From Gluconobacter kondonii (lineage in GTDB: Bacteria; Pseudomonadota; Alphaproteobacteria; Acetobacterales; Acetobacteraceae), in the NCBI RefSeq assembly GCF_002723995.1, contig NZ_BEWP01000003.1, positions 186,001 through 250,000 on the forward strand: a stretch of DNA of 64,000 nt, read 5' to 3'. Made by a program: the position numbers and the translations under genes. Under the pieces are notes generated by a model. It searched no databases. It was not told the origin of the DNA and was given only the letters and a program-made list of their open reading frames with translations. This document shows, in pieces, positions 2,049 to 16,783 of this stretch. Position 1 is the first letter of the stretch; each line of letters begins with the position of its first letter.

Positions 2049-2083
2049 GAAAGCGGGTGGCCTTCATGGAGGTGCCCGCTTTC
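2049..2083 (+). other. stem-loop in the leader of the sheath gene
   Basis: GAAAGCGGG (2049-2057) pairs perfectly with CCCGCTTTC (2075-2083), and CCT/AGG can extend the helix in the loop. TGCATTTT follows, so it could act as a weak terminator or as a processing/stability hairpin. It lies in the only sizeable non-coding gap before the sheath and separates connector genes from the abundant tail proteins. It also makes a sheath start upstream of 2083 unlikely. Confidence 0.55.
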
Positions 2084-2107
2084 TGCATTTTGGAGAGCGA
2101 TCCGGGG

Positions 2108-3595
2108 ATGTCTCTGGTCTATCAGGCGGGAACGCTGAATACCACGGCACTGACCGTGCCAAATCTTTATGTGCAGATTGCCCAGCCGCAGACGCTGGCC
2201 CTCTCGGGCGTATCGTCTTCGGTGTTGGGGATTGTGGGAACCGCTGGCTGGGGGCCGGTGGGAATGCCGCTGCCGATCGGGGGCATGAGCGATTATGTCG
2301 CGGCGTTCGGCGGTAAGCAGAACAAGACGACGGATGCGGGTCTGGCGGTCAATATTGCTGTGCTGCAGGGAGCGTCGACGTTCGTGGTTGTCCGGGTGAC
2401 GGACGGAACGGATGTGGCTGCTTCCGGTGAGCTTGATGGAGTGACAGTTCAGGCTGTCTGCACTGGCAGTGCGGGTAATGGCATTGTTGCCGCAGTAACG
2501 GCTACGGGGTCCGGTTATGCACTTGCGGTGACACATGCCGAGCTGGGTTCAAGGACTTATGCCGGTGCAAACTGGTCCGGGATTGCCGCTGCTGTGGCGC
2601 AGGATCTGAGTGCGCTCGTGAAAGTCGTGTTGCCGGAAACGGTTCCGGCTGTGGCGGCTGCGAGTGTGACGCTCTCAGGCGGCACGGATGGTGGCGTTCC
2701 GACCACGGCGCAGTTCCTGGGGCAGGACAGCACGGTCCGGACGGGTATGTATGCGCTGCGTGGGCAGGGATGTGCCGTCGGGTTGCTGCATGGTGTGTCG
2801 GACAGTACGTCCTATACAGCGCAGGCGGCTTTTGGGACGTCCGAGGGGGTCTATATGATCGCCGTGGGCCCAGCTGCGGATACGGTGACGAATGCGATTG
2901 CGGTTAAGGCATCGAGTGGTCTGGATGCGGCGTCGGTCAAGCTCATGTTCGGGGACTGGCTGTGGTGGGATGATGACAGCAACGGTGTGATTCTCGTGAG
3001 TCCGCAGGCATTTGCGGGTGGCAGACTGGCCGCGCTTTCACCTGAACAGTCCAGTCTGAACAAGGCGCTGTCGGGGATTGTGGGAAGCCAGAAGGCAGGT
3101 CTGACGGGAAGCAGTGCCACGTATTCCACGGCGGAACTGTCCGTGCTGTTTACGGCTGGAATTGATGTGATCTGCAATCCGGCGCCGGGCGGAAGTTACT
3201 GGGCTGTACGGTGTGGGCATAATTCGTCCAGCAAGAGTACCATGAATGGCGACAATTACACGCGTCTGACGAACTATATTGCGTCTTCGCTTGCGGGCGG
3301 CATGGGCGGTTATGTCGGCGAGGTCATTAACGACACGCTGTTCAGTGATATTCGCTCGACGCTTCTGGGGTTTCTGTCGTCTCTGCTGTCTCAGGGTATT
3401 CTGGGCGTTCAGAATAGTGAACTGCCCTATAGCGTGGTCTGTGATTCGAGCAATAATCCGCAGTCCCGTACGGCGCTGGGCTATGTGCAGGCGGATGTGG
3501 CTGTTCGATATCAGGGCATCAACGAGAAATTCATTGTCAATTTGCAGGGCGGCGCGTCTGTCACTGTGTCGTCTGCGTCGGGGAGTGTCGGCTAA
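2108..3595 (+). CDS. contractile tail sheath protein
   Basis: Forms the contractile outer tube of the tail, equivalent to Mu gpL/P2 FI. The N-terminus MSLVYQAGTLNTTALTVP followed by a V-P-x-LYVQI-type segment, the GIVGTAGWGPVG stretch and the C-terminal NEKFIVNLQGG segment are typical of sheath proteins. I choose ATG 2108 (495 aa) rather than the in-frame GTG at 2057 because the upstream start lies inside a strong hairpin, while GGAGAG precedes 2108. Length fits the family. Residues about 120-215 are a variable Ala/Val/Gly-rich insertion domain likely exposed on the tail surface. The stop codon is followed directly by the tube gene's ATG, as expected for proteins made in equal amounts. Confidence 0.9.
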   Translation: MSLVYQAGTLNTTALTVPNLYVQIAQPQTLALSGVSSSVLGIVGTAGWGPVGMPLPIGGMSDYVAAFGGKQNKTTDAGLAVNIAVLQGASTFVVVRVTDGTDVAASGELDGVTVQAVCTGSAGNGIVAAVTATGSGYALAVTHAELGSRTYAGANWSGIAAAVAQDLSALVKVVLPETVPAVAAASVTLSGGTDGGVPTTAQFLGQDSTVRTGMYALRGQGCAVGLLHGVSDSTSYTAQAAFGTSEGVYMIAVGPAADTVTNAIAVKASSGLDAASVKLMFGDWLWWDDDSNGVILVSPQAFAGGRLAALSPEQSSLNKALSGIVGSQKAGLTGSSATYSTAELSVLFTAGIDVICNPAPGGSYWAVRCGHNSSSKSTMNGDNYTRLTNYIASSLAGGMGGYVGEVINDTLFSDIRSTLLGFLSSLLSQGILGVQNSELPYSVVCDSSNNPQSRTALGYVQADVAVRYQGINEKFIVNLQGGASVTVSSASGSVG

Positions 3596-4021
3596 ATGGC
3601 AAATCCATACAGCATTGGCCGGGATTGCCGGATTACGGTTCTGTGGAATGGTCAGCGGGTTGATCTGAGGGATGTGACGTCTTTCAGCGCCGCTCAGGAA
3701 ACGCACGCTCTGCGTGCCAATCCGTTGAATGGTGTTCCGCTGGAATTCAATGTTCCGAATGGCTGGCGGGGAGCGTTTCAGATCGCCCGCGCCAATGCGG
3801 CGCTGGACAATCTGGTGGCAGCTGTGGAAGCAGCCTACTGGAATGCGGGATCGGTCGGAAGCGGGACGATCTACCAGTACGTTACGGAGCCGGATGGTTC
3901 GACGAGCACATGGGAGTTCAACAATGTGTCCATGCAGCTGAAAAGTGATCCCTGGCAGGCGGATCATATGATCCATCAGACGGTTCAGTTCTTTGCTTCT
4001 ACGAGGACGAAGATTTCGTGA
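3596..4021 (+). CDS. tail tube protein
   Basis: Forms the inner tube inside the sheath (Mu gpM/P2 FII position). The 141-residue product starts immediately after the sheath stop codon. It has the compact all-beta appearance of tube proteins, with NPYSIGRDCRI at the start, an alternating strand pattern, and a C-terminal STWEFNNVSMQLKSDPWQ segment. No signal peptide or cysteine pair. It overlaps the next gene by 4 bases (GTGA), indicating translational coupling. Function is assigned from size and position between sheath and chaperone genes. Confidence 0.85.
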   Translation: MANPYSIGRDCRITVLWNGQRVDLRDVTSFSAAQETHALRANPLNGVPLEFNVPNGWRGAFQIARANAALDNLVAAVEAAYWNAGSVGSGTIYQYVTEPDGSTSTWEFNNVSMQLKSDPWQADHMIHQTVQFFASTRTKIS

Positions 4022-4335
4022 GTGATTTTCCGCAGGAAATTGTTCTGTCAGATAAGCGTCGTCTGACGTTGCGCGAGATTGATCCGGCGGACATGCTGGA
4101 TCTGATCGAAGCGGCGGGAAGTGCGATCAATGGGGCTTCGGCGTCTGCGTGGTTGGGCTATGCGGAAATGATCTGTTCCGTGACGGCGATTGATGGTGTG
4201 CCGGTTCAGATGCCGCAGAGCAAGGACGAGATCCGTGATCTTGCGCGGCGTGTCGGAAAATCCGGGATTGCTGCGCTGACACCGTTGTTTGAGCGTGATG
4301 CGGATGATGATATCCGGGACATCGCAAAAAACTAA
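4018..4335 (+). CDS. tail assembly chaperone, short form (G/E-like)
   Basis: Chaperone that coats the tape measure protein during tail assembly, not part of the finished particle. The 105-residue acidic protein starts at GTG 4018, overlapping the tube stop by 4 bases. It is largely helical, starts with a beta segment (EIVLSDKRRLTLREIDP) and ends RDIAKN right at a slippery A AAA AAC heptamer, exactly where lambda G and P2 E equivalents shift frame. A fraction of ribosomes should therefore make a 162-residue fusion with the downstream frame (to 4505). Family identity is inferred from position, size and the frameshift element rather than from sequence motifs. Confidence 0.8.
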   Translation: MSDFPQEIVLSDKRRLTLREIDPADMLDLIEAAGSAINGASASAWLGYAEMICSVTAIDGVPVQMPQSKDEIRDLARRVGKSGIAALTPLFERDADDDIRDIAKN

Positions 4336-4388
4336 GTCGGCACTCCGGGTTTCAGGAGATGCTTTATCTGCTGGATCACGGGGTGCCG
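4326..4388 (+). promoter_or_regulatory. programmed -1 ribosomal frameshift element
   Basis: The heptamer A AAA AAC (4326-4332) is in the correct register relative to the upstream gene (codons aaa aac), two codons before its stop. Five bases later starts a 9-bp stem: CGGCACTCC (4338-4346) with GGGGTGCCG (4380-4388), one G.U pair included, enclosing 33 bases. Spacer of five bases and a stable stem are the textbook arrangement for stimulating -1 slippage. The -1 frame is open from the slip site to 4505. Confidence 0.85.
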
Positions 4389-4505
4389 TGGGATGTTTTG
4401 CGAGGGTGGTCAGGGGCGCGGCGTTTGGCCGCGTGTGTCATTACCGGTGAGCGGGAAGGACACTGTTTTGACTGGGAAATGATGCGGTATCAGGGAGAGA
4501 TATGA
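4332..4505 (+). CDS. frameshift extension of tail assembly chaperone (T/E'-like)
   Basis: The -1 frame encodes 57 residues fused to the short chaperone after slippage at 4326-4332, giving a predicted 162-residue G-T type protein. The extension reads LSRHSGFQEMLYLLDHG at its start and ends FDWEMMRYQGEI. The domain is small, helical and Trp/Arg-rich, as in other T-type extensions that bind the tape measure. An internal ATG at 4359 is preceded by CAGGAG, so limited independent translation of a 48-residue form is also possible. The stop TGA (4503-4505) overlaps the ATGATG start of the next gene, coupling it to the tape-measure-slot protein. Confidence 0.75.
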   Translation, partial: LSRHSGFQEMLYLLDHGVPWDVLRGWSGARRLAACVITGEREGHCFDWEMMRYQGEI

Positions 4506-5347
4506 TGCGGGAGAACATCTGGCGGAATATTCTCTCGGTCAGGACATTTTCCGGTCAGTATGTCAGAGGGTTGTTGCGAAGGGGAGCGCTGGTTTCGGGG
4601 GTGCCTCGTTTGCGGAAATCGGGCTGGGCGAAGACGGTTCATGCCAGAAATCATCCGGAGATTGCGGTCAGGATGGCGTATTCTGGAACGCGGGAAACAT
4701 CCAGTACTCGGAGCGTGCCCGGCGCAGGGAAGCCGACTGGGTTGCGAAATGAGGCGCACTTTTCAAGGCGAAAAGGGGATGAGGTATCGATGCTGCCCTC
4801 TTTTTCTGTCAGATCTGTTGTTGCTCTTGCTGGGAACAAGGGGCGGATTAAAAGGGTATCTACCTTTCCGAATTCTCCGCGGCAGATGTCGCAGCTGCGT
4901 GTCAAACAAGATAAAATAGTTTCCAATAAGAAACGTATCAACTTTTTTTTCCGAAGAACTGTCTCTCCGGAAAGACAATCGGGGTTGCTCGAAAGAATAT
5001 TCCCTTCAAAGTCTGCGAGGCGTGTTGGGAGTGCTGCATCGTCCGTTGTTCTTGAGATGATGCGGCGGTCTGGAAACTCCTTGTTTGTGCCGCAAGCTCG
5101 GCCTCTCCTTGCGGGGGAGGGGATGTACGGAACGATCGGGCGGGAACAGAAGTCGCAGCATGTTTTTTCAGGGGCTCGACCATATCACGATACTGAAATT
5201 GTGAATGATCGTCTGGAGCATGAGGTGAGGAGCGGGGATTTTCTGCTGGGTCATCGTGATGCCCGTCTGGCGGCACGTCGTTCTGGCGGAGGTGTGGATG
5301 AGATCATGCAGCCTCAGTATCCCGGTCGCAGTATCGGATTTTTCTGA
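4505..5347 (+). CDS. small basic protein in the tape-measure slot (280 aa)
   Basis: By position (after the frameshifted chaperone, before the DNA-circularisation/baseplate gene) this should be the tape measure protein that sets tail length. It does not look like one: only about 280 residues, very rich in Arg/Lys/Ser, poor in long helices, with no obvious hydrophobic segment or coiled coil. Two tandem ATGs (4502, 4505) exist; GGAGAG at 4494-4499 favours the second. The reading frame is intact, translationally coupled upstream and followed by a good ribosome site for the next gene. The DNA around 4790-5000 is visibly richer in A and T than its neighbours. Either a minimal tape measure, a diverged remnant, or an unrelated protein. 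Confidence 0.5.
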   Translation: MRENIWRNILSVRTFSGQYVRGLLRRGALVSGVPRLRKSGWAKTVHARNHPEIAVRMAYSGTRETSSTRSVPGAGKPTGLRNEAHFSRRKGDEVSMLPSFSVRSVVALAGNKGRIKRVSTFPNSPRQMSQLRVKQDKIVSNKKRINFFFRRTVSPERQSGLLERIFPSKSARRVGSAASSVVLEMMRRSGNSLFVPQARPLLAGEGMYGTIGREQKSQHVFSGARPYHDTEIVNDRLEHEVRSGDFLLGHRDARLAARRSGGGVDEIMQPQYPGRSIGFF

Positions 5348-5365: not shown

Positions 5366-6280
5366 ATGGGTATTGGCCTTTCTGACATAGAAAATGCCAT
5401 TGGCGCTGTGGGGCGTTTGGGGGCGTCGTCGCCGGTTATACTGGGAAATCTGGTTCTGACGGGAATTGAGGTTCCGGACACGCTTCAGGTTGGCGGTCGT
5501 CAGATGCTGGTTGTGCATCGTTTGCCTGGTGGTGGGCGGGTTGTGGATGCGCTGGGCAATGATCCGGGACGGCTGGAACTGCAGGGACGTTTTCTCGGTC
5601 CTGATGCGCAGATGCGCGCGCAGGCAGTCGAGCGCATGCGTATGGCGGGACAGCAGGTTGCGTTCTCGGCGGCGGGTCTTTCTGTGCAGGTGTGGATTGC
5701 GCAGTTTACTTACGTCTATCAGGCGAAGGGGGCGGTCTGTTCCTATAAGCTGGTGCTTGAGAGGCCTCAGGAAACGGCGTCCGTCCAAAGTGTGTCGACT
5801 CTGTCAGGTTTGCTGGGAGATGATGTCGGGAGTGCTCTCGACAGCTTTTCCGGGGTTGTTTTGGATGTTTCCGAAGGCGTCTTTACGGCGGCGGGGCAGG
5901 TGTCTTCGGTTGTCGGACAGGTGATGCCGCTGGCCAGTTTGGTCGGGGCAGGCGGTTTTGCCTCGAAAGTTACGGATGCACTGGGGACGGTCAATGGCGT
6001 GGCGCAGAGCGGGATGAATCTCGCGACGGTTCCCTCCGCACTGGCGTCTGTGGCGGGAGGGCTGGAAAGTGCGGGAAGCGGTTTGCAGTCCATTATTGCC
6101 GGGGCGGGACAGAATGTTGAGGCTATCCAGCCGGTTAACAGTGTTTCGCTGAATACTCTGGGTCAGAATGCGGCACTTCTGAGTGCGGCGGCTGATGCAG
6201 GGGGGCTGGTCAACCGGTCTGCGGCGAATATTGCGGTGGCTCAGGGGCAGGAGACGGCTTTGCCGTCCGTTTTCGCATGA
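5366..6280 (+). CDS. Mu gpN-like DNA circularisation / tail protein
   Basis: Equivalent in position to Mu gp43 (N), a baseplate-proximal tail protein whose family is named for the DNA circularisation N-terminal domain. AGGAGA lies 9 bases before the ATG. The N-terminal 135 residues contain the recognisable VPDTLQVGGRQMLVVHRLPGG stretch (shortened here) and GNDPGRLELQGRFLGPDA, typical of that domain. Residues about 150-300 are a long Ala/Gly/Ser/Val-rich, amphipathic tail with many small residues, resembling a helical stalk. At 304 residues it is somewhat shorter than Mu N. Because the tape-measure slot protein is odd, this long C-terminal region could contribute to length determination, which is speculation. 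Confidence 0.75.
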   Translation: MGIGLSDIENAIGAVGRLGASSPVILGNLVLTGIEVPDTLQVGGRQMLVVHRLPGGGRVVDALGNDPGRLELQGRFLGPDAQMRAQAVERMRMAGQQVAFSAAGLSVQVWIAQFTYVYQAKGAVCSYKLVLERPQETASVQSVSTLSGLLGDDVGSALDSFSGVVLDVSEGVFTAAGQVSSVVGQVMPLASLVGAGGFASKVTDALGTVNGVAQSGMNLATVPSALASVAGGLESAGSGLQSIIAGAGQNVEAIQPVNSVSLNTLGQNAALLSAAADAGGLVNRSAANIAVAQGQETALPSVFA

Positions 6281-6284
6281 GGGA

Positions 6285-6497
6285 ATGATGCAGGATATTA
6301 TTGTTAGTGCTGCGGATATTTCCTTGTTTCATGTGGCGGCGCGTGAACTCGGAGATGCGTCCCAATGGTGGAGAATTGCGCAGGTTAATGGGATGGCCGA
6401 TCCGGATCTGGGAAGGATTTCTGAAACTGTTGTTTTGAAGGTTCCGTCGGTTGAGCTTGATCTGGTGTCCGGTCTGCCTGATGGAGCATTGGAATGA
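6285..6497 (+). CDS. LysM-like tail protein X
   Basis: Short 70-residue protein of the P2 gpX type. It reads ISLFHVAARELGDASQWWRIAQVNG and then NGMADPDLGRI, which matches the LysM-like pattern found in tail X proteins that bind near the hub and may contact peptidoglycan. Starts at one of two tandem ATGs (6285, 6288). It begins 4 bases after the preceding stop codon and overlaps the next gene by 4 bases. P2 carries this gene upstream in its tail operon whereas Mu lacks it at this point, so the module mixes both layouts. Confidence 0.75.
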   Translation: MMQDIIVSAADISLFHVAARELGDASQWWRIAQVNGMADPDLGRISETVVLKVPSVELDLVSGLPDGALE

Positions 6498-7555
6498 GTG
6501 TCAGAAACCTGGAGATTCAGGTTCTTTTTGACGGGCAGGTCGATCCTGTTCTGGCGCTTGTACAGTTTGAAATCGATGCCAGCCGGTATGAGGCCTGCGA
6601 TGTTGCTACCCTTCGTCTGGCCGTCAGAAAGCAGGGAGCGGCAACGCCGTGGTTTGAGGCGGAGCAGCCGGCGCGGAAATGGGTGACGCTTCAGATGCGG
6701 GATACCCAGAATATTGCGGCGGCCTGGACGACGCTGTTTCAGGGGCGTCTTGATCACATCGATTATGTGGCTGAGCATGCCATTCTGGAGATGGAATGTC
6801 GCGATGCGCTGGCAGCATTAATGGATCTGCGCGTTCAGGATGCGTGGCTCAACCATACCCAGCAGGAACTTATGGAAATCATGGCGCAGGCGGCGGGGCT
6901 TGAGGCGCAGATTACGTTGCCCTCGGATCAGGCGGCGCTGATGGCGGGTCAGTTTTGGCAGATCGAGCACAAACGGGGTGCTCTTATGGGGCAGCACCGT
7001 TTTCAGACTGCGGCGGATCTGGCGTTTACGATTGCAAGGGATGCGTTCTGTGATCTTTATGCCGACGGAACATCTCTTGTCTGTCAGCCGCTGGGGTCTG
7101 CTTCGGATGCTGATGCACAGGTGACGGATATGCGTCAGGCGGTTCTTGAAACCGGAATTGCGCGCGATTTGCAGTTGCTGGCGGGTGTGGTCGTTCATAT
7201 GGCTTCGTGGGATTCCCGGCAGAGAAGTACGACTCACGTCTATTACGATGGTGTTTCTTTTTCTCAGGACGCACCTTCGGGAAATTCTACCATCCATACA
7301 TTCCGTGTTCCTGGACGCCGGCTGGAAGACTTGCAGCGGCTGGCACGAGGTAAACATGCTCGCATTGCTGCTCACGCGTTATCGGTCCGAATTAAAATTC
7401 CGGGAATTATCGGAGTTTCGCCACGGGATTTCATGACCGTGGCGGTAGGAAATGGTGAGAAAACCCTGGGGATCGATCAGGTTCTCTCACGCTTTTCCGT
7501 GGAGCAGGGATTTGTGCAGCATGTCGTTCTAAGAGATCGGGGAGGTGAGGCATGA
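6494..7555 (+). CDS. baseplate hub protein (gpD / Mu gpP family)
   Basis: Forms the hub ring that holds the spike at the tail tip (phage late control gene D family; T4 gp27 fold). The 353-residue protein begins with a beta-rich VRNLEIQVLFDG segment, contains EAEQPARKWVTLQM and LFQGRLDHIDY in the first domain, and a C-terminal portion with GVSPRDFMTVAVG and DQVLSRFSVEQGFVQHVVLRD-like strands typical of the family. It overlaps its neighbours by 4 bases on both sides, consistent with assembly as a tip complex with X and V. No lysozyme-like insertion is present. Confidence 0.88.
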   Translation: MSVRNLEIQVLFDGQVDPVLALVQFEIDASRYEACDVATLRLAVRKQGAATPWFEAEQPARKWVTLQMRDTQNIAAAWTTLFQGRLDHIDYVAEHAILEMECRDALAALMDLRVQDAWLNHTQQELMEIMAQAAGLEAQITLPSDQAALMAGQFWQIEHKRGALMGQHRFQTAADLAFTIARDAFCDLYADGTSLVCQPLGSASDADAQVTDMRQAVLETGIARDLQLLAGVVVHMASWDSRQRSTTHVYYDGVSFSQDAPSGNSTIHTFRVPGRRLEDLQRLARGKHARIAAHALSVRIKIPGIIGVSPRDFMTVAVGNGEKTLGIDQVLSRFSVEQGFVQHVVLRDRGGEA

Positions 7556-8175
7556 ATGACGCCCGTTTTGATGCGGCTGCTCTGCAAGGTCGGACGGCGC
7601 ATACGATGTTTGGAATCGTGTCTGCCGTTGATCCGGTCAATCATGCCGTCAAAGTCCGCATTCAGCCTGAAGACATAGAAACAGGCTGGATCCCGGATGC
7701 GTGCGGTGTGCATGCGGGGGATCTTCGGATTGCACGTCCGTCTTCTCCGGGAACGCATGTTGTTTTGCAACCGGTTGAGGGAGACGGAGAGCATCTGGTC
7801 GTGACGGGAAGTGTGTATGACACTGTGGTCATGGCGCCCGTGTCTCCGCTGACCGGTAAGGTTGCACAACCTGGCGAATTTCTTGTCAAAGGCGGGTGCG
7901 GTCTTCCGCCATTGTCTGCTTCCGGAGGTGTTGGGGCATCGTCTTCCGGTGCGGGGTGGTTACATATTGGTCCGGATGGTGTGGCGGCGGGTGCGGGAAA
8001 TGCGTCTCTCCTTATTAAGAACGGGGCGATAAGTCTTTCTGTTGGTGGAACGGATATGACGCTGACATCTGCCGGACTGACTCTTTCCGGAGGGGATATT
8101 CGCACTGATCAGCATTCTCTGAATGAACATATTCATCTGGCAGGAAGCCAGAAAACGGGAGGGCCGCTTGGATGA
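7552..8175 (+). CDS. tail spike / baseplate protein V (Mu gp45-like)
   Basis: Membrane-puncturing spike at the tail tip. The N-terminal OB-fold region is visible as HTMFGIVSAVDPVNHAVKVR and the GTHVVLQPVEGDGEHLVVTG stretch. Residues about 110-207 are Gly/Ser-rich beta-helix repeats. The C-terminal end has an EHIHLAG segment; His-x-His near the apex binds an iron ion in P2 gpV and phi92 gp138, so the same is likely here. Length (207 aa) matches the family. Overlaps both neighbours by 4 bases. No separate PAAR-tip gene is seen. Confidence 0.88.
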   Translation: MNDARFDAAALQGRTAHTMFGIVSAVDPVNHAVKVRIQPEDIETGWIPDACGVHAGDLRIARPSSPGTHVVLQPVEGDGEHLVVTGSVYDTVVMAPVSPLTGKVAQPGEFLVKGGCGLPPLSASGGVGASSSGAGWLHIGPDGVAAGAGNASLLIKNGAISLSVGGTDMTLTSAGLTLSGGDIRTDQHSLNEHIHLAGSQKTGGPLG

Positions 8176-8531
8176 TCGCTCTTTCGCATGTTTTTGGGAA
8201 TGATCTGGTTCTGTCCGCCGGAGGGCTTCAGACAGTTTCGGGATCGGAGCTTACGAGGCAGGGATTGCTGAGGCGTCTGCTGACGGTTGCGGGAAATTAT
8301 GTCTGGCAGCCCGATTATGGAGTGGGGCTTCCGCTCATGGTGGGACAGCTCATTGCTCCGGAAGCCATGGAATCGGTCATACGTGCGCAGGTTCAGCAAG
8401 ATGCCAATGTGGACGCTTCAGAGGCCGTGACTGTCACCGTGACGGATGAGGGGCTGGGCATTTGCAGATGTGATGTTTCCTATGTGGATGCCGGGTCCGG
8501 CCAGCAGCAGAGCCTGTCTTTTTCCTACTGA
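8172..8531 (+). CDS. baseplate wedge protein (gpW/gp25, Mu gp46-like)
   Basis: A 119-residue wedge component that links the sheath to the baseplate, family GPW_gp25. The pattern of a small domain with TRQGLLRRLLTVAGNYVWQPDYGVGLP followed by strands ending in SYVDAGSGQQQSLSFSY is characteristic: an early helix, a conserved Gly-rich segment before a helix with the EAMESVIRAQV sequence, then paired strands. Starts with ATG overlapping the V stop codon. Followed by a 44-bp gap with a ribosome site for the J gene. Confidence 0.82.
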   Translation: MIALSHVFGNDLVLSAGGLQTVSGSELTRQGLLRRLLTVAGNYVWQPDYGVGLPLMVGQLIAPEAMESVIRAQVQQDANVDASEAVTVTVTDEGLGICRCDVSYVDAGSGQQQSLSFSY

Positions 8532-8575: not shown

Positions 8576-9715
8576 ATGTCTCTCTCTTTACGTTCCTTTT
8601 CCACGACCGTTTCCACTGCGGTGACAACGGCGCAGGCATCCTGTTCGCAGTTGCTGGACGTTTCTATCGGTTCTCCCGTTCGGGCCCTGATGGAAAGTGT
8701 TGGCGGTGTTGGTTTGTGGTTGCAGTATCTGGTGTTGCAATCACTGTTACGGACCCGCCTATCGACGTCAACGGGGTCGGACTGTGACAGTTTTGTCTAT
8801 GATTTTGGCATGAGTCGATTGCCCGGCACGGCAGCGACAGGTGTTGTGACGTTTACTTCTTTTCTGGCCAGCGAGCAGTCGGCAGTTGTTCCTCCAGGAG
8901 TGATCGTGCGGACAGTCGGGGGGATCTCCTTTGCGGTGACACAGGATCAGAATTTGCCAACATGGTCTGCCTCTGCGGGAGGATATGTGCGGGCGGCGGG
9001 CGTTGCGACGTTATCGGTTCCTGTGTCTTGTCAGGTGGTCGGATCGGTCGGAAATGTTTCGGTTGGTGCGATCTGTCTGATGGGAACGGCCGTGGCGGGA
9101 CTGGATACGGTGACGAATGGTGCGCCTTTCCTTAATGGTTCCGATCAAGAAACGGATAGCCAGCTGAGGACACGCTTTCCGCTTTGGCTGGCTGCAAAAG
9201 CCTCGGCCAGCAGGGCTGCGGTGGGTAATGCCATTGCCAATGTCCAGACGGATCTGAGTTATTCGCTGCGGGATGGTCTGGATACGGCGGGGAATGCGCG
9301 AAGTGGTTATTTTACGGCTGTAGTGAATGATGGAAGCGGCGTTCCGTCGGACCAGATTTTATCGAATGTCTATGATGCCATTGATTCTGTGCGGGCTCTT
9401 GGGGTCGGTTTTGCTGTGCAGGCGCCTCAGGATCTGACGCTGAATGTATCCATGGATGTCATTGTGCCTTCGTCTGTTCCGATTCAGCAGGCCGTGAGCG
9501 CCATCCAGTCGGCCGTGTCCAAGGATATTGCGTCCACGACAGTGGGTGATGGTTATCCGTACAGCCGCCTGTCCTATCTGGCTTATGCCGGTGCGGGCGT
9601 TACCGTGACGTCTGTTCTGAATGTCCGACTGAATGGCGGGCAGATCGATATTCCTGCAAATGGCAACCAGGCACTCATGGTTGGGAATATTCAGATCAAT
9701 GTCACTCAGGGTTGA
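8576..9715 (+). CDS. baseplate J-like protein (Mu gp47)
   Basis: Large wedge component that surrounds the hub and connects to fibres. The 379-residue sequence shows the baseplate_J signature: a variable N-terminus, then VVPPGVIVRTVGGISFAVTQ, a strand-rich core with VSVPVSCQVVGSVGNVSVGAI, and QETDSQLRTRFPLWLAAKA, which is the conserved D-x-x-LRxR region of the family. AAGAGGATGCG precedes the ATG. Ends 41 bases before the next gene. Confidence 0.88.
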   Translation: MSLSLRSFSTTVSTAVTTAQASCSQLLDVSIGSPVRALMESVGGVGLWLQYLVLQSLLRTRLSTSTGSDCDSFVYDFGMSRLPGTAATGVVTFTSFLASEQSAVVPPGVIVRTVGGISFAVTQDQNLPTWSASAGGYVRAAGVATLSVPVSCQVVGSVGNVSVGAICLMGTAVAGLDTVTNGAPFLNGSDQETDSQLRTRFPLWLAAKASASRAAVGNAIANVQTDLSYSLRDGLDTAGNARSGYFTAVVNDGSGVPSDQILSNVYDAIDSVRALGVGFAVQAPQDLTLNVSMDVIVPSSVPIQQAVSAIQSAVSKDIASTTVGDGYPYSRLSYLAYAGAGVTVTSVLNVRLNGGQIDIPANGNQALMVGNIQINVTQG

Positions 9716-9756
9716 GGGGGTGAATTCTGAATTCTTGGGACGGATGAGGACTTTTT

Positions 9757-10995
9757 ATGGCTGTATTTAATACATATCCCAAACTCGACTCCCTGACGGG
9801 AGAAGAGGTTGTCGTACTGGCAGATTCCAGCGGTACACGAACCGTTACGGCGACGGTCTCCCAGATTATCGAGGCACCCGTCAGTGTTGCGGCAAGTGGG
9901 CAGTTCTACTCTGACAAAGGCGCACAGGTAAAACGGTTTGCGGACCGGCTTCTGGTAGGTGTTGCAGCCGACAATCCTACTCTGAGCGACAGGGCCAGTT
10001 CGTCTCAGAATGACTGGCTTTCGGAAACCATGGGGGCAACATCCATCGGTCCCTGGGCGTTGCAGGATGCTCAGTGTGCGTCGCTCGCGCAGTTTGGCAA
10101 CAGTGCGTTTGTTGCGGGGTCGCGCACATCCGATGCCGTGAGCGGTAAGGCGTTGCTGGGTTTTCAGCCGAGTTCGATCGGGGTGGCGTCCTGGGGAATT
10201 TCCGATGATACGTCCAGTCCGACAACCACGACCGCTTATGCCTATTATGGCGAAGCGTGGCGTCTGGCCGGAGTGGATTATCAACCAACTTTCGGAATGG
10301 AGCTTGAGGCTGTCAATTTTGGTGGCCTTGCAGTGGGACAGTCGACACCTTATGCGCCGAATGTCGGCGGGGGCGTATATGGGATCCAGCTTGGTGCGGG
10401 TGGGGGCCAGACATCGGGGACTTCCGATGCTGCGGCGGGTATGGTGTTCGTTTCCAATCCGAATTCATGGCAAACGGGCATTGTGTTTGGGGCCCAGTCC
10501 CTGACCGGAACGAATGGCAAGGATTCCGGATATGCCTCGGCTGTTTCCCTTGCGCGTAATCAGGCTGTGGAGTGGCATACTCCTGAGACCGTTTCCGGTG
10601 TGGCCGGGTCCAATGTTGGTGCATTTGTTCGTTCTACCGTGACGGAACGCACTAACGGCATGCGTCAGGAATTTACGGATAACGGGATCCTATTTGGTAA
10701 TATTGAAGGTGAGACGCTGTTTTCTGTCGCCAGCATGCCAAGCCCGACCAACGCGCTTCAGGTTCAGGCCGGTGCCGGGACACAGGCGGCCGGTCTGTAT
10801 GTGCAGGAAGGGACGGGTGGATCGGGAAATCTGGGGCTTTTTCCAGCGAGCGGCGGGGAGTTGCAGATTACGTCTCCGGTGACGGGAACAGGGGGGACAA
10901 TGCCCACTGTTGCCAATGGGGGTTTTCTGCATATCAACGTCAACGGTGCAGATTATCGTATTCCGCTGATGGCTCCAGACCAGGTCGGAGGGTGA
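9757..10995 (+). CDS. fibre-like structural protein (412 aa)
   Basis: No exact family recognised. The N-terminus (PKLDSLTGEEVVVLADSS, then TVSQII) resembles short attachment domains at the start of phage tail fibres. The remaining 370 residues are Gly/Ser/Thr/Ala-rich with short beta repeats and a region (residues about 170-260) with Gly-Gly-Val clusters; the C-terminus ends in a compact DYRIPLMAP segment. GAGGA lies upstream of the ATG. It sits between gp47 and gp48 homologues, where Mu has no gene, so it is an extra fibre, tail-tip decoration or receptor-binding component. Composition fits a beta-helical trimer. Confidence 0.6.
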   Translation: MAVFNTYPKLDSLTGEEVVVLADSSGTRTVTATVSQIIEAPVSVAASGQFYSDKGAQVKRFADRLLVGVAADNPTLSDRASSSQNDWLSETMGATSIGPWALQDAQCASLAQFGNSAFVAGSRTSDAVSGKALLGFQPSSIGVASWGISDDTSSPTTTTAYAYYGEAWRLAGVDYQPTFGMELEAVNFGGLAVGQSTPYAPNVGGGVYGIQLGAGGGQTSGTSDAAAGMVFVSNPNSWQTGIVFGAQSLTGTNGKDSGYASAVSLARNQAVEWHTPETVSGVAGSNVGAFVRSTVTERTNGMRQEFTDNGILFGNIEGETLFSVASMPSPTNALQVQAGAGTQAAGLYVQEGTGGSGNLGLFPASGGELQITSPVTGTGGTMPTVANGGFLHINVNGADYRIPLMAPDQVGG

Positions 10996-10999
10996 TGGG

Positions 11000-11686
11000 A
11001 TGGCGGTTCTCTATGATGAAGATAAAGATATCCTCCGGGCTTCTGATGGCAGCGTTCTGCTGGATACGGGGCCAGCGCCTGGCTCGGTAGAGGATTTTGC
11101 AGGTCGGTTCCGGCGCCTTTTACCGACAGGGTGGTTTCCGCCGGCGCCCCAGGGGTTGGAAGCGGAATCTGCACCGGTATTGGCCGCAATTCTGCGTGGC
11201 TTTGGTGCGGTTCTGGCCGGAATCTGGCAACTGATGCAGGAATGTTCCCTGCAAATGCGTCTTGCGACGATGAGCGGCGCTTTTCTTGATATGGCTGCCG
11301 AAGATTATTTCGGGGATGGGGGACTGGTTCGTCAGGCATCCGAGCCGGATGTCGTGTATCGCAAACGCATCCGTGCGGCACTGTTTGCCGAACGCAACAC
11401 CCGTCAGGCTGTAACGAATGCGCTTGTCGCGGTGACGGGTGTGCATCCGGTAATTATCGAAACCCTCAATGCGTCCGACTGTCATGCGCTTGCCTGTGCA
11501 TCGGTTCCTGCCATGGGCGGGGGGCACGGTTATGGTGCGCAGGCCCTGCGCTACGGCAGCCTTCAGGGTGGTCAGTTTTTTGTGGAAACACAGTTGGGAA
11601 AAGCCGCAGATCTGGCGACAGTCTGCCGTGTTGTCGATCAGACAGCAGCCATGGGCGTTACCGGCTGGATCAAGGTGAAAAATTAA
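11000..11686 (+). CDS. tail protein gp48-like / gpI position
   Basis: 228-residue protein resembling Mu gp48 and the DUF2313 group, which caps the wedge and supports fibres. Visible pattern: FAGRFRRLLPTGWFPPAPQG at the N-terminus (a RLLPxGxxW-type motif of this family), helices with LAAILRGFGAVLAGIW, then residues 110-150 with VVYRKRIRAALFAERNTR and a C-terminal beta region. Overlaps the fibre gene by 1 base (TAATG). Position immediately before the terminal fibre matches the Mu and P2 layout. Confidence 0.75.
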   Translation: MAVLYDEDKDILRASDGSVLLDTGPAPGSVEDFAGRFRRLLPTGWFPPAPQGLEAESAPVLAAILRGFGAVLAGIWQLMQECSLQMRLATMSGAFLDMAAEDYFGDGGLVRQASEPDVVYRKRIRAALFAERNTRQAVTNALVAVTGVHPVIIETLNASDCHALACASVPAMGGGHGYGAQALRYGSLQGGQFFVETQLGKAADLATVCRVVDQTAAMGVTGWIKVKN

Positions 11687-12942
11687 TGGATCGGGCCATC
11701 GTTTATGCGGGATCAATCCCGCTCGATACGGATCTGCTGCGGGCAGGGCGCTATACCAAGGCGGCATTCGGTAATCTGGCGTCCATGCTTTACGGACCTA
11801 ATGTCATGGCGGCCTCGGGACTGGGATGTTCGGCGGCTTATAACAGCCTGAATCTGACGATTGAGGCAGGGTCGATTGTTGCTCCCGGCGTTATGGATGC
11901 TTCCACCATTGGTGGCAATGGTGGAGGTCTGGCAGCGGATACGACCGCTCTCACATGCCAGTATATCAGCACGGCCTCGCAGACCATTACTCTGCCAGGC
12001 TCCGGCAATACCTATACGATTTATGCTCTCTGTTCCGAACAGGATGCTGACCTGACGGTGCTTCCGTTCTTCAATGCCAGCAATCCCTCCCAGACACAGG
12101 CTGGTATTGAGAACAACGGCAGCGCGCTTCCTGTGCGTCGGACGGGCACTATGACCTTTGTCGCGGCAACTAACCCTCCTGTTGCTCCGACGGGTGGGTG
12201 TGTTGTAGCGCTTTATACGATTACGGTGCCGCAGGGAGCGTCTACTCTGGCGGGAGTAACAGCTCAACCAGGACAGGTGTTCTGGCCGACCATTCCTGAG
12301 CTGGCGACGCAGGCTCTGCTGAAGGCGTCGACCGAACCCATGACACTCGTGACCGGAAATGGCTCGGTTTCCATCCCGGCCTGGGCATCCAGAGTGGAAT
12401 TGCGCGTTATCGGTGCCGGTGGGGGTGGCGCGGCCTCGCAGGCCACGACGACTGCCAGTTCGTTTTCTGGTGCCGGCGGCGGCGGTGGCGGGGATGCCTG
12501 GGGCATTTATACCGTCAGTCCAACGCAGGGCAGCGGACTGGCGATTACGGTCGGGAATGGCGGCGGGTCCGAACAGACGGGTGGTACGTCTCTTGTCAGC
12601 TATCTCGGGCAGACACTCCTGCAGGCCGAAGGCGGACAGGGTGGCACGTTCTATTCCACGACGGGGTCTGCAGGCGGTGTCGGTGGAAATGCTTCTGGCG
12701 GTACCGTCTGGAACCAGAGCGGAACGTCCGGTGGTGATGGACAGTGTAACGCCTACACGTTCTCAGGCTATGGAGGTGATGGCCCGTGGGGTGGTGCAGG
12801 GCGTTGCGGCAATCAGGGCGGCCGGAACGCCACACGATATGGCGCGGGCGGTGGTGGCTCCTATTCAGCGACGACCGACGGCGCATCGTCCAGTGGTGGC
12901 ACAGGATATCAGGGCTGTGTCCTGTACCGTTTCCTGCCCTGA
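11686..12942 (+). CDS. glycine-rich tail fibre / receptor-binding protein
   Basis: 418-residue terminal fibre. Residues 1-60 carry an N-terminal domain with GRYTKAAFGN; residues about 60-220 are beta-rich; residues about 245-410 are extremely Gly-rich, with GGGG runs (IGAGGGGAAS, GAGGGGGGDA, GAGGGGSYS) and interspersed Ser/Thr/Asn/Tyr. Such glycine-rich tips resemble the polyglycine sandwich adhesins of T-even type gp38 and glycine-rich receptor-binding proteins, in which loops set host range. No chaperone gene follows. The gene ends 5 bp before the convergent dehydrogenase genes and has no terminator of its own, so the phage block ends abruptly here. Confidence 0.75.
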   Translation: MDRAIVYAGSIPLDTDLLRAGRYTKAAFGNLASMLYGPNVMAASGLGCSAAYNSLNLTIEAGSIVAPGVMDASTIGGNGGGLAADTTALTCQYISTASQTITLPGSGNTYTIYALCSEQDADLTVLPFFNASNPSQTQAGIENNGSALPVRRTGTMTFVAATNPPVAPTGGCVVALYTITVPQGASTLAGVTAQPGQVFWPTIPELATQALLKASTEPMTLVTGNGSVSIPAWASRVELRVIGAGGGGAASQATTTASSFSGAGGGGGGDAWGIYTVSPTQGSGLAITVGNGGGSEQTGGTSLVSYLGQTLLQAEGGQGGTFYSTTGSAGGVGGNASGGTVWNQSGTSGGDGQCNAYTFSGYGGDGPWGGAGRCGNQGGRNATRYGAGGGGSYSATTDGASSSGGTGYQGCVLYRFLP

Positions 12943-12947
12943 CAGGC

Positions 12948-14261
12948 TCAGTTCAGCGCAGGTGTGTCATCCGCCATATCGGAAGGTGGCATGCTTTTGC
13001 TGAACTGTTCCACCTCTTCTGCCGAAACAGGGGAGGCGTTGTTTCCCCATGCATGCCGGATGAATGTCACGACATCGGCAATCTGCTGATCGGTCAGCTT
13101 GTGGTTAAACGCAGGCATCGTGAAGGAGGAGGGAGCGGCAGTCATGGCAGGAAGGGTCGCGCCAGCCTGAACGATATGAACGAGTGACACCGGGTCGGTC
13201 TGCATCACGACGGGATTGCCCGCCAGTGGCGGAAAGACGGCAGGATATCCCTTGCCGTCCGTACGATGGCAGGCGGCGCAGCGATCAATATAGACGCGCG
13301 CGCCCTGCGATGAAAGATCCGCTTTGTGAAGCTGGTCCGTAATGGTGGGATCGTATGTCCAGGGTGTCTGGGACTGGTCGGCTGTTTGAAGGCTTTTGAG
13401 ATAATGCGCGATCGCCCGCAAATCCTCATCAGTCAGTTTCTGTGTGCCATGCAGAACGGCAGACGTCATGGAACCGAAGACGCTTCCGGTCTCGGCGCGG
13501 CCAGTCTTGAGGAACGCTACGATATCCTCTTCGCGCCAGCGGCCCAAACCGGTCCGGTTTTCCTGACGCAGGGACGGAGGCGTCCAGCCATCCACCACGG
13601 CTCCACCAGACAGATAAAGACGGCCGCCATCGGCCGTCAGGGATTTTTCCTGCATGGTGATGGCGCGTGGAGAATGACAGGCTCCGCAATGGGCAGGCCC
13701 TTCCACGAGATAGGCGCCCCGTGCCAGTTGGGGATCGGTAAATTCTCCGGCGGTGCGGGTGATGGCTTTATGAGGCGTGGGCGCAAAAATCCAGCGCCAG
13801 AACGTGAGTGGCCAACGCATGGACAGTGGCCACTTAATCTCGTTGTCCGGCGTTGCAACGGAAGCCGCTGGAACGCCTTTCCTGAAATAGACAAATAATG
13901 CGTGAATATCGCTGTCTGTCATCCGGGCATATGAGGGAAATGGCATGGCGGGATAAAGGGTTGAGCCATCCCGGCGAATGCCTTCCCGTACGGCACGGCT
14001 GAACTGTGCTTCCGTATAGCGTCCGATCCCGTGTTCGGGGTCGGGGGTGATATTGGTGGAGTAGATTTTCCCCATAGGAAGAGAAAATGATACTCCTCCA
14101 GAATATTCCGGTTTCCCGTGAACGGAATGGCAGGCCGCGCAGTCGGAGGCAGCTGCCAGATAGCGTCCTTTTTCCAAGGTGGCTGTGTCAGTATCTTGCG
14201 CGATTGCAGATCCCGTAAGTCCGGCTCCGAGAATACAGGCGATGAAGAGAGGTTTCTTCAT
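12948..14261 (-). CDS. membrane-bound dehydrogenase, triheme cytochrome c subunit
   Basis: Passes electrons from the flavoprotein subunit to ubiquinone in the cytoplasmic membrane. A Sec signal peptide (residues 1-21, ending AIA) precedes three heme-binding CAACH/CGACH/CAACH motifs at about residues 41-45, 192-196 and 328-332; three hemes are the norm for this subunit. Length (437 aa) fits family proteins of gluconate, 2-ketogluconate, sorbitol and alcohol dehydrogenases. It overlaps the flavoprotein gene by 4 bases at its start. Genes of this kind in gluconate 2-dehydrogenase are called gndC/gndH in some Gluconobacter work. Ends head-to-head with the tail fibre. Confidence 0.85.
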   Translation of the reverse strand: MKKPLFIACILGAGLTGSAIAQDTDTATLEKGRYLAAASDCAACHSVHGKPEYSGGVSFSLPMGKIYSTNITPDPEHGIGRYTEAQFSRAVREGIRRDGSTLYPAMPFPSYARMTDSDIHALFVYFRKGVPAASVATPDNEIKWPLSMRWPLTFWRWIFAPTPHKAITRTAGEFTDPQLARGAYLVEGPAHCGACHSPRAITMQEKSLTADGGRLYLSGGAVVDGWTPPSLRQENRTGLGRWREEDIVAFLKTGRAETGSVFGSMTSAVLHGTQKLTDEDLRAIAHYLKSLQTADQSQTPWTYDPTITDQLHKADLSSQGARVYIDRCAACHRTDGKGYPAVFPPLAGNPVVMQTDPVSLVHIVQAGATLPAMTAAPSSFTMPAFNHKLTDQQIADVVTFIRHAWGNNASPVSAEEVEQFSKSMPPSDMADDTPALN

Positions 14262-16033
14262 GCTTTCACCAGCGGGCCAGGGGATTTGAGATATGTCGTT
14301 CGAATATGGTGCGCGGCCCAGTAAGCGAGCGCAGCCACCATTCCCGTTGGATTATATCCCATGCCCTGCGGAAACGCATTCGACCCGATGACGAAGACGT
14401 TGGACACATCCCAGCTCTGAAGATAGCGGTTGATCGCACTGGTCTGGGGATTTTCTCCCATAATAGCCCCCCCTCCCAGATGGGTGGTCTGGTAAGTGCG
14501 CGTGTCGAAGGGTTGACCCGCGTTGAGATGAACCAGATTCATTTTCGTTGCCCCCATAGCGCGGGCGATGGGTTCGATCTTGCTCACCACATACTGATTC
14601 ATGCGGATGTCATTGTCCTTCCATGTGAAGGTCATGCGAAGCAACGGCTGTCCGTAAGCATCCTTCCACGTTGGGTCGAGATCCAGATAGACATCCCGAT
14701 ACGCCATGTTGCTGCCATGGGCGTCGATACCGAGCGAATGTTTGTAAGTATTGACGAGGGAGTCCTTGTAGGCCGAACCCCAGCGTGGCGTGCCTCCCCC
14801 TCCGGCGCCGAGTGCGGCGGCAATCGGCTTTACACCCGCCTGATTGACCCAGACAGGCGATCCCCCCACAAAACCGAGCGGTCCGTGATCGAAATTCATG
14901 CTGTTGAAATCGTCAATGGCAACTCCGGCTCCGCCCGCTCCGACAAACTGGTTCGTATAGGTGGAAGGCGGTAACCAGACGCGTGAGGACGTGATCGTCT
15001 GGTAGACGAAATTGCGTCCGACTGTTCCGGTGTTGCTGATGGGATCGTAGGGTTTTCCGATTCCGGACATGAGCATCAGATGAACATTGTGGAATTGGAA
15101 CGCCCCCAGAATAACCAGATCCGCCGAGAGCGAGGTTTCTTTCCGGGTTTTCGTGTCCAGATATGTGACGCCAGTCGCTTTTGTTTTCGTGCTGTCGAGA
15201 TCGACGCGCAGAACATGGGCGTTCGGGATAAGGGAAAATCTCGGATCCTGCCGCAGGACAGGCAAAATGTTCACGTTGGGTGATGCTTTTGAATACAGGT
15301 AGCAGTCATACCCGCTGCAATAACCACAAAAATTACACGGCCCCATCTGGCAGCCGTAAGTGTTGGTATATTGCCGCGACGCATTGGCTGCGGGAAGAGA
15401 ATAGGGGTGATACCCGGCATTTTTCGCGGCATCCCGGAAAACTGATGCTGAAAAGGTATCTTCCATGGCTGGAAGTGGAAAATTATCGGAACGATCCGGA
15501 GAAAAAACATTCCCGTCTCCGACAATTTTTCCCTGAACCTTGTAGGCTTCTCCTGATGTCCCGAAAACCTTTTCTGCTTTGTCGAAAAAAGGTTCGAGCT
15601 CGTCGTAGCTGACGCCATAATCCTGAAGGTTCATACCTTCGGGAATGAATTTCTCGCCATACCGTTCGATCACGGCGCTGCGGAGCCTCAGGTCTTCCGG
15701 AGCAACGCGGAAATGGACGCCAGACCAGTGCAGACCCGCACCGCCGACGCCTTCGCCGGGCAAAAATGCCGCGAGTTGCCGGTACGGCAAGGCTGTCTGG
15801 TCCATGGTATTGCGGATCGTCAGGGTCGACTGGGACAGGTTCTGGAAAAGCCGCTTGCGGATGGCTCCGCGCAGTTCGTCAATGGATTCCGGATAGGCCC
15901 CTTCGACAGGTGTCGTTCTCTCCGACCCCCGCTCCAGCATGACGACCGACAGACCGGCTTCGGTCAGCTCCTTGGCCATGATTGAGCCGGCCCAGCCTGC
16001 TCCTACAATGATCGCATCGATATGTTTGACCAT
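14258..16033 (-). CDS. FAD-dependent GMC oxidoreductase, large subunit (gluconate 2-dehydrogenase-type)
   Basis: Periplasmic catalytic subunit that oxidises a sugar acid or sugar, probably D-gluconate to 2-keto-D-gluconate. GAGWAG (about 11-16) is the FAD-binding glycine motif; the C-terminal THLGGGAIMG and MGYNPTGM segments contain the GMC catalytic His and Asn. A cysteine cluster (C228, C233, C236, C239, C244) matches the region that binds a [3Fe-4S] cluster in related FAD glucose dehydrogenases. No signal peptide: export is expected piggyback with the Tat-signal small subunit. Starts at 16033, one base overlap with the small-subunit stop. Substrate (gluconate vs other polyols) is inferred from context and memory of Gluconobacter gene order, not proven. 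Confidence 0.85.
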   Translation of the reverse strand: MVKHIDAIIVGAGWAGSIMAKELTEAGLSVVMLERGSERTTPVEGAYPESIDELRGAIRKRLFQNLSQSTLTIRNTMDQTALPYRQLAAFLPGEGVGGAGLHWSGVHFRVAPEDLRLRSAVIERYGEKFIPEGMNLQDYGVSYDELEPFFDKAEKVFGTSGEAYKVQGKIVGDGNVFSPDRSDNFPLPAMEDTFSASVFRDAAKNAGYHPYSLPAANASRQYTNTYGCQMGPCNFCGYCSGYDCYLYSKASPNVNILPVLRQDPRFSLIPNAHVLRVDLDSTKTKATGVTYLDTKTRKETSLSADLVILGAFQFHNVHLMLMSGIGKPYDPISNTGTVGRNFVYQTITSSRVWLPPSTYTNQFVGAGGAGVAIDDFNSMNFDHGPLGFVGGSPVWVNQAGVKPIAAALGAGGGGTPRWGSAYKDSLVNTYKHSLGIDAHGSNMAYRDVYLDLDPTWKDAYGQPLLRMTFTWKDNDIRMNQYVVSKIEPIARAMGATKMNLVHLNAGQPFDTRTYQTTHLGGGAIMGENPQTSAINRYLQSWDVSNVFVIGSNAFPQGMGYNPTGMVAALAYWAAHHIRTTYLKSPGPLVKA

Positions 16034-16734
16034 CAGGCGGTCTCCCCGGAAATGGAAACCGGGCCAATGGGATAGGACGCCCCTTCCTGATTGACCCAGT
16101 CCATGAAGTCCGCCCGTGCGCCGGGAAAGCCCAGCATGATCCAGCCCCCAAGGCCCCGGTTGCCGCCGTAAAGCGGATCGGCAAAAGCTCCTTCTAGTGT
16201 GTTGGTCCGAAGCTGCTCGAAAAAGACTCGTCCCGGAATGTCGCCAAGCTGTACGGAGCCACCCTCAAGAGCTGTCAGGATTTCGTCCTGCTGCAAAGCG
16301 GACAGAGCTGAAAATCCCTTCCCGTATTGCTGGCGAGCGTAGTGCTCCACCCCTGCAATTCCTTTGCGGTACAGGTCTTTGGGGACGAAAGGCAGTTGGT
16401 AACCCAGATTGGCTGGCCCCTGCTCGAACGGGCCGGACATGTACCAGTTTTCGCCCCGTGCGTATGGGGTCTGCATCTGCCGGTCCAGAAATTCCGCAAC
16501 ACCGAGTGCCTTTGCGCCCGGGCCATTATGGTCAGCGGGAAACAGACGTTCGCAGGCGGATTCGAGAAACTGGTATTCCGCTGCATTGAAAAAAGCCGGT
16601 TGATAGGGCTGGGCCGCTTCAGCAGCCAGAGCCTCTGCCCAACGGGCGTTTCCTGACGCCATCCAAAATGACGTGGTTCCCAGAAGTCCTTTTACGACAC
16701 TGCGGCGGAATGGATTGTTCAGTGTCGGTTCCAT
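16033..16734 (-). CDS. dehydrogenase small (gamma) subunit with Tat signal
   Basis: Hitch-hiker chaperone-like subunit that carries the folded flavoprotein across the membrane (gluconate 2-dehydrogenase subunit 3 family). A twin-arginine signal (FRRSVVKGLLG) lies near the N-terminus. I choose ATG 16734 (233 aa); a GTG start 39 bases upstream would add a short non-conserved stretch without a ribosome site. The mature part contains FFNAAEYQFLESACERLFPAD, the family hallmark. First gene of the three-gene operon small-large-cytochrome c. An inverted repeat lies about 60 bp upstream. Confidence 0.85.
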   Translation of the reverse strand: MEPTLNNPFRRSVVKGLLGTTSFWMASGNARWAEALAAEAAQPYQPAFFNAAEYQFLESACERLFPADHNGPGAKALGVAEFLDRQMQTPYARGENWYMSGPFEQGPANLGYQLPFVPKDLYRKGIAGVEHYARQQYGKGFSALSALQQDEILTALEGGSVQLGDIPGRVFFEQLRTNTLEGAFADPLYGGNRGLGGWIMLGFPGARADFMDWVNQEGASYPIGPVSISGETA

Positions 16735-16783
16735 GGGGGGCACAGCTTTCTCCGGGGATAGAACCAGGGGCACAGAAGTTCTA

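Follow-up and report, generated by a model that had tools for sequence, protein, structure and literature searches.

Predicted lambda-type −1 frameshifting in the tail assembly chaperone gene of a contractile-tail locus from Gluconobacter and other acetic acid bacteria

How is an open frame translated that begins out of register at the very end of a short tail assembly chaperone gene? This question is raised by a contractile-tail gene module in Gluconobacter kondonii (assembly GCF_002723995.1, contig NZ_BEWP01000003.1, positions 186,001 to 250,000 of the forward strand), i.e., by a stretch of 64,000 nucleotides that is referred to as the window and whose own numbering is used below. The G-like tail assembly chaperone is encoded on the plus strand by an open reading frame (ORF) of 105 amino acids (4018..4335), which matched phrog_20383, a family of unknown function (E 1.1e-15). 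The slippery heptamer A AAA AAC occupies positions 4326-4332 of the plus strand (A4326, AAA 4327-4329, and AAC 4330-4332) in the correct X XXY YYZ register for this ORF, and is directly abutted by the 0-frame stop codon TAA (4333-4335). From CTA 4332-4334 onwards, the −1 frame is open for 57 residues up to TGA 4503-4505, forming a T domain (4332..4505, plus strand), and a shifted G-T product of 105 + 57 = 162 residues is predicted. The stop codon of T is overlapped by the next ORF, which starts with ATG at 4502. A preliminary description of the window, made from the sequence alone, had pointed to the heptamer in register at the 3' end of the chaperone gene, the −1 frame open to 4505 with a 162-residue fusion, and the location of the chaperone between the sheath and tube genes and the tape-measure slot, all of which were borne out by the sequence and the gene order. 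It had further expected that standard annotation would overlook the fusion, which applies to Komagataeibacter phage phiKX1: its deposited record lists G and T individually, each as a hypothetical protein, and lacks the fusion.

We propose that ribosomes translating G would slip back by one base at A AAA AAC, aided by a stem-loop 5 nt downstream and perhaps also by the adjoining stop codon. The majority would stop at TAA, yielding the 105-aa G, and a minority would continue in the −1 frame, yielding the 162-aa G-T. By analogy with lambda, G may coat the tape measure and T may recruit tail-tube subunits; given such roles, the G:GT ratio would matter for tail building. By computational tests, the slippage signal is real, and we regard −1 ribosomal slippage at A AAA AAC, yielding both G and the G-T fusion, as nearly certain. 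The signal, its conservation, and the selection on T were observed directly; the slippage itself, its rate, and the roles of G and G-T are inferred. AAAAAAC as such is overrepresented in the window (10 occurrences on both strands versus 3.34 expected; none of 100 shuffles reached 10), so that the evidence lies in register, position, and conservation rather than in the heptamer alone. A chance occurrence of the heptamer was considered and ruled out by its register and conservation.

For conservation, G was searched over 397 genomes of the family, giving a match in 156, and 162 loci were examined. A first set of 58 loci comprises the locus of the window's genome, the 29 best matches of the G search, 27 viral contigs, and phiKX1; 44 further loci derive from named genomes, among which Gluconobacter species are the closest relatives; and 60 more distant loci were chosen by hand from search rows without a locus, leaving out ten rows ranked just above. 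The set is redundant, with the same species recurring across collections, and two pairs of loci represent one place each (L103 and L108; L024 and L099, the latter judged by contig position). A slippery heptamer was found at the homologous position in 161 of the 162 loci. A AAA AAC stands directly before the 0-frame stop in all 58 loci with a G at least 56% identical, and a heptamer is present in all 44 loci from named genomes (42 by matching; L101 with A AAA AAC and L103 with G GGA AAC were checked singly) and in 59 of the 60 distant loci. In seven of these 60, the 0-frame stop does not abut the heptamer and follows 18 nt past it. Two cases weigh against the proposed slippage: L134, the sole exception among the 162 loci, has no heptamer at the homologous position, and the T frame of L024/L099 (Asaia astilbis) is interrupted near its middle, reflecting either a sequencing error or decay. 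In L045, the T frame is cut by the contig end. The preliminary description had named homologues without the heptamer, or with a broken T frame, as what would speak against it; such homologues occurred as these exceptions only, and the conservation that it had suggested checking in homologous modules was confirmed.

Leaving out L045, L134, and L103 (the same place as L108), we tallied heptamer variants in 159 loci, which represent 116 distinct sites. A AAA AAC was found in 116 loci, G GGA AAC in 40, A AAA AAT in two, and G GGA AAT in one. These counts bear on two other ways of producing T. Runs of A can make RNA polymerase slip, and slippage during transcription of the A6 run could join the two frames; however, the G GGA AAC members (40/159) keep the site without a long homopolymer and the stem 5 nt downstream is conserved, which makes this explanation the least credible of those considered. 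Alternatively, T could be a separate protein made by re-initiation or from an internal start past the G stop, with an incidental A-run, as would suit its deposition as an own coding sequence in phiKX1 and the recurrence of the earliest −1-frame start codon at two codon indices, 9 (30 of the 116 distinct sites) and 17 (25 sites). Among the same sites, however, the first ATG, GTG, or TTG lies at ten different positions (in two sites, none occurs within 20 codons), and the heptamer, kept almost throughout, is replaced only by other slippery heptamers. We therefore consider a separately initiated T highly improbable, if marginally less so than polymerase slippage.

The choice of codons also argues for ribosomal slippage. 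The A-site codon encodes Asn in all 159 sites (AAC, rarely AAT), and the Lys codon AAG was found in none. In 14 genes (13 genes of the element and dnaB), Lys is encoded by AAG 58 times and by AAA 33 times, and Asn by AAT 116 times and by AAC 53 times. AAA and AAC are thus non-preferred codons, yet they are kept at the heptamer, so that codon choice points to the slip site. We found 42 tRNA genes in the genome, including those for tRNA-Lys(UUU), tRNA-Lys(CUU), and tRNA-Asn(GUU); in a host with both lysine tRNAs, AAG may be a poorer slip codon, which could explain the Asn codon in the A site.

The putative stimulatory stem-loop (4338..4388, plus strand) was supported by folding and alignment. 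As had been predicted in the preliminary description, a 9-bp stem (4338-4346 with 4380-4388; one pair is G-U) follows the heptamer after a spacer of 5 nt, and the folding model adds an inner hairpin inside its loop. The 68 nt from 4333 to 4400 fold with −31.4 kcal/mol, compared to −18.05 (standard deviation 2.57) in 200 shuffles, none of which was as good (z −5.19). When 57 distinct sequences from L001-L105 were aligned (513 cells for nine pairs), the stem pairs were formed in 92.2% of the cells, whereas controls with slid partners reached 42-53%. The covariation score (0.162) exceeded all 500 shuffles (mean 0.134); pairs altered on both sides numbered two, which is not above the shuffles for these 57 sequences. 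Three pairs are invariant, and the outermost pair forms in 28 of the 57 sequences. RNAalifold proposed eight pairs, one of them further inward with changes on both sides in six sequences. Over all distinct sites, the 65 nt 3' of the heptamer fold with z < −2 in 106/116. Two loci (L109 and L156) showed no structure past the heptamer in this 65-nt folding; together with L155, they belong to a distant group that keeps heptamer and T, with weak or absent downstream structure. In the window, 4322-4329 can additionally pair with 4396-4403 (TTTTGCG), a longer pairing that would bury the slip site and might modulate frameshifting.

T read in the −1 frame is under purifying selection, with ratios of nonsynonymous to synonymous substitution rates (dN/dS) of 0 to 0.21 between the window and 11 Gluconobacter loci. 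Other genes of the element gave values of ≤ 0.27 where dS was computable, except for one scaffold value of 0.54 at a dS of 0.02; two ORFs in this set fall short of full length, i.e., the gene for a 216-aa protein in L073 and the fibre in L065. An AlphaFold model of G (predicted local distance difference test score, pLDDT, 84.1) had the HK97 tail assembly chaperone 2ob9 as its first Foldseek match in the PDB, which is weak (E 0.26), and YqbN and 2ob9 top the VIA list. Pfam gave no match for G, T, or the tape measure, and PHROGs gave none for T or the tape measure.

The ORF that overlaps the T stop (4502..5347, plus strand; 281 aa) encodes a putative short tape-measure protein, assigned by its position and by a C-terminus resembling that of phiKX1. 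The corresponding ORF comprises 274-297 aa in twelve Gluconobacter loci (L062-L073). In nine of these twelve, it is only 26-34% identical to that of the window, with a nearly invariant C-terminus, and other proteins of the same loci are ~73-100% identical, short matches at stretch ends aside. The protein is basic (net charge of +28 to +38 in the twelve loci versus −12 in phiKX1), has a highly variable middle and a near-constant length, and outpaces in its evolution all other element proteins in the comparison (dN/dS 0.27-0.78 in the nine loci where computable). Its AlphaFold model was poor (pLDDT 43.5, predicted template modelling score 0.12) and gave no structure. In other genera with the element, lengths are mostly 248-361 aa and the C-terminal motif is kept in most loci; exceptions are shorter ORFs in L097 and L099 and an ill-fitting frame in L083. 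The slot protein of phiKX1 comprises 742 aa and ends in QLPGRAIGR, and the likeness of this end to QYPGRSIGFF supports a shortened tape measure. The host strain of phiKX1 is reported with tails of 98.9 nm (PMC8566455, Table 1), and scaling from 742 aa to 281 aa would give an estimated tail of ~35-45 nm. For contractile-tailed particles from three Gluconobacter strains, tails of 72-95 nm are reported (PMC8566455), which would be longer than the 281-residue ruler suggests.

What, then, carries this module, and why has the signal been kept? The element spans ~20 kb, from a divergent regulator (L002:12805) in the upstream stretch L002 to the end of the tail fibre (12942 in the window). The upstream stretch comprises a gene that we take from its sequence to be dnaB, the divergent helix-turn-helix regulator, small unknown genes, and the genes for TerS, TerL, portal, scaffold, and major head protein. 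In the window, where the element is encoded on the plus strand, genes of unknown function stand before the sheath, and tube, G/T, tape measure, baseplate, and fibre after it. The tail sheath protein (2057..3595) matched phrog_23 (tail sheath, E 6.3e-49), and the putative tail tube protein (3596..4021; phrog_12993, unknown function) was assigned by its position after the sheath. The baseplate region (5366..8531) includes a phrog_36820 protein, a small X-like protein with weak baseplate/tail matches, a D-like protein (6494-7555; by position only, without a family match), and a V-like spike and a W-like protein, both assigned by baseplate families. It is followed within 8576..12942 by baseplate J (8576-9715), a 412-aa protein without a family match, an I-like protein, and the tail fibre (11686-12942) as the right end of the element. 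The chromosomal right flank (12948..16773, minus strand) lies outside and holds what we presume from sequence to be genes for a cytochrome c, a GMC oxidoreductase, and a small-subunit-like protein, found right of the fibre in several genera. The divergent regulator (L002:12805-13197) is 83-88% identical in G131, G390, G250, and Brytella G079, exceeding many element genes there. Antisense ORFs over terL, portal, and capsid were judged to be by-products of antisense-frame codon use.

The carrier could be an ordinary temperate prophage that re-enters its hosts, with the conserved neighbourhood as a preferred insertion site. Its head, packaging, and tail genes (TerS, TerL, portal, scaffold, capsid, sheath, and baseplate) are largely intact in a chromosomal contig, and related free phages exist in phiKX1 and phiKX2. 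Of 177 acetic acid bacteria, 15 yielded myovirus particles upon treatment with mitomycin C, including three Gluconobacter (PMC8566455). However, a scan of all but a few small ORFs revealed no recognisable integrase, transposase, or replication gene, and neither MuA nor MuB; TerS gave one weak transposase-profile match (E 0.0041). The only sign of lysis genes came from the small X-like protein, which weakly matched an endolysin profile (phrog_380, E 0.001); in our judgement, this match reflects a shared binding domain. No close record was present in the phage collection, where G matched only phiKX1 and phiKX2 (56%) and TerL matched 601 records, all below 60% identity, and the capsid protein had no match among plasmids.

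Within the window's genus, G matched in 25 of 26 genomes (none in G403) and is single-copy in 24 (in one as a remnant), with two copies in one genome and none in one. The remnant in G397 comprises G residues 87-105 only and lies near the usual distance from dnaB. This distance, from start to start, is 13.2-13.3 kb in 17 of the 26 genomes, 12.8 kb in G250, 19.8-20.6 kb in four genomes (G054, G131, G180, and G390), and ~96 kb in G378; in G407, the two genes do not share a contig. For 29 genomes from other genera, G and dnaB are separated by ~90 kb or more, or are likewise found on separate contigs. On the right, the same cytochrome c gene follows the fibre on the opposite strand in 14 of the 16 Gluconobacter loci, named or uncultured, that reach far enough (exceptions: L072, with a short 48% match only, and L073, with none), as well as in all eight Asaia loci, Swaminathania L088, and Tanticharoenia L085. 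Among the longer stretches, those of the Asaia-type loci L195 and L196 and of G250 (L202), G025 (L203), and G022 (L204) continue from cytochrome c to the GMC oxidoreductase and genes beyond it, and Brytella L079 has genes from further right in the flank. Most genera therefore share the site on one side or the other, and Gluconobacter and G250 on both sides; Acidomonas and Ameyamaea are without such support.

Phage-protein and DnaB distances agreed over 30 genomes (Mantel r 0.80, reached in 0 of 2000 permutations; Spearman 0.59), and the main clades are common to both trees. In five genomes, TerL, capsid, and sheath have smaller synonymous distances than dnaB; for TerL (L002:15203-16516), the values are 0.10-0.31 versus 0.44-1.09 in four of them and 1.24 versus 3.12 in the fifth. 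The synonymous distance of J exceeds that of dnaB in three of the five genomes and stays below that of cytochrome c in the four where the latter was found; V, fibre, and the 412-aa protein also exceed dnaB in some pairs. Overall, the synonymous distances of element genes are comparable with those of host genes. Several observations weigh against inheritance at a single site and speak for repeated entry: right-flank genes were not found in the Neokomagataea-type loci L078, L082, L198, and L200 (the left flank being shared in Neokomagataea), in Acidomonas L083, or in Ameyamaea L092; phage and host nearest neighbours sometimes disagree, placements being discordant within Asaia, for L019 and L020, and in further cases; and G401 holds a second, less similar G copy. 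Against a re-entering prophage stand the agreement of phage-protein and DnaB distances, the flanks common to several genera, the single-copy state of G in the genus, and the fact that no mobility or replication gene was recognised among the scanned ORFs, and we consider it unlikely. Alternatively, the locus may encode a headed bacteriocin, or may be a prophage that is still active.

The carrier fits an inherited (domesticated) particle locus of acetic acid bacteria, possibly a contractile-tailed gene transfer agent. As a serious but tentative possibility, we suggest that an ancient phage locus was inserted once in the ancestor of Gluconobacter, Neokomagataea, Asaia, and allies and has been inherited since, that it makes a contractile-tailed particle (gene transfer agent or headed bacteriocin) whose very short tail is set by a basic, probably disordered ruler of ~280 residues, and that the frameshift has been kept for a host-owned particle. 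From this distribution, the slip signal would have been kept because the whole particle locus was inherited and kept intact. We found no account of an inherited phage locus in acetic acid bacteria among the paper titles screened or in the parts consulted of PMC8566455 and PMC9379143, with most subscription papers outside the scope. If the locus is domesticated, bacteria of industrial use would hold a candidate gene transfer agent with a contractile tail, in which the G/GT pair would have been kept although the tape measure shrank to under half its length. A classic recoding signal is extended here to a large, poorly annotated contractile-tail family in alphaproteobacteria, and the interchange of two slippery heptamers at one fixed place, in a host with two lysine tRNAs, provides a natural test of which heptamers work.

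Compared to known systems, the predicted frameshift would be the known lambda-type G/GT shift in a new family. The lambda slip site has the Lys codon AAG in the A site, whereas here the A-site codon is Asn AAC, the heptamer abuts the stop in most members, and the module encodes a contractile tail. The tails of the haloarchaeal viruses HCTV-1, -2, and -5 are non-contractile, and their g-t genes also differ by their archaeal hosts; they are likened here by heptamer description, not by sequence comparison. The contractile-tail gene order of Mu is similar to that of the window's module. The likeness to lambda comprises a short G, a −1 shift near its end, a longer GT, an X XXY YYZ heptamer (PMC5009743), and a position before the tape measure, and the heptamers described for HCTV-1 (G_GGA_AAC) and HCTV-2 (A_AAA_AAC; PMC5009743) are the same two as here. 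Mu also has a two-frame tail chaperone; as the preliminary description had noted, it uses a different shift, i.e., −2 in its tail assembly genes (PMC5009743, PMC2628397, and PMC4378225), whereas the frame that is open and selected past the heptamer here is −1. Of the proposed lambda/P2-like solution inside a Mu-ordered module, the Mu order stood; a Mu-like transposase was not recognised in the ORFs scanned, and the carrier looks unlike an ordinary recent prophage. In a survey that covered 1106 prokaryotic genomes for frame transitions, A_AAA_AAC is one of the consensus heptamers, and one cluster consists of 41 tail-chaperone genes, two of which were tested and showed 6-7% shifting (PMC3711429). 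Such shifts were also predicted in PMC10885494, whose main text, in the parts consulted, does not mention acetic acid bacterial hosts.

The related phages phiKX1 and phiKX2 (53 kb records) both have a homologous module and a G that is 56% identical; phiKX1 shares A AAA AAC, T, and the stem, and differs in its tape measure, which has 742 aa and is separated from T by an additional 171-aa gene. Gene transfer agents, such as the Rhodogtaviriformidae, share endogenised head-packaging-tail genes with the locus described here, which differs by its contractile tail. They also package mainly random pieces of host DNA for delivery to other cells, in a head that is too small for their own genes. Among their attributes are phage genes that have become endogenous to the host, are inherited vertically, and diversify along with it (PMC9662315); the locus has endogenised particle genes and, some discordant placements aside, was found to be inherited and to diversify together with its hosts.
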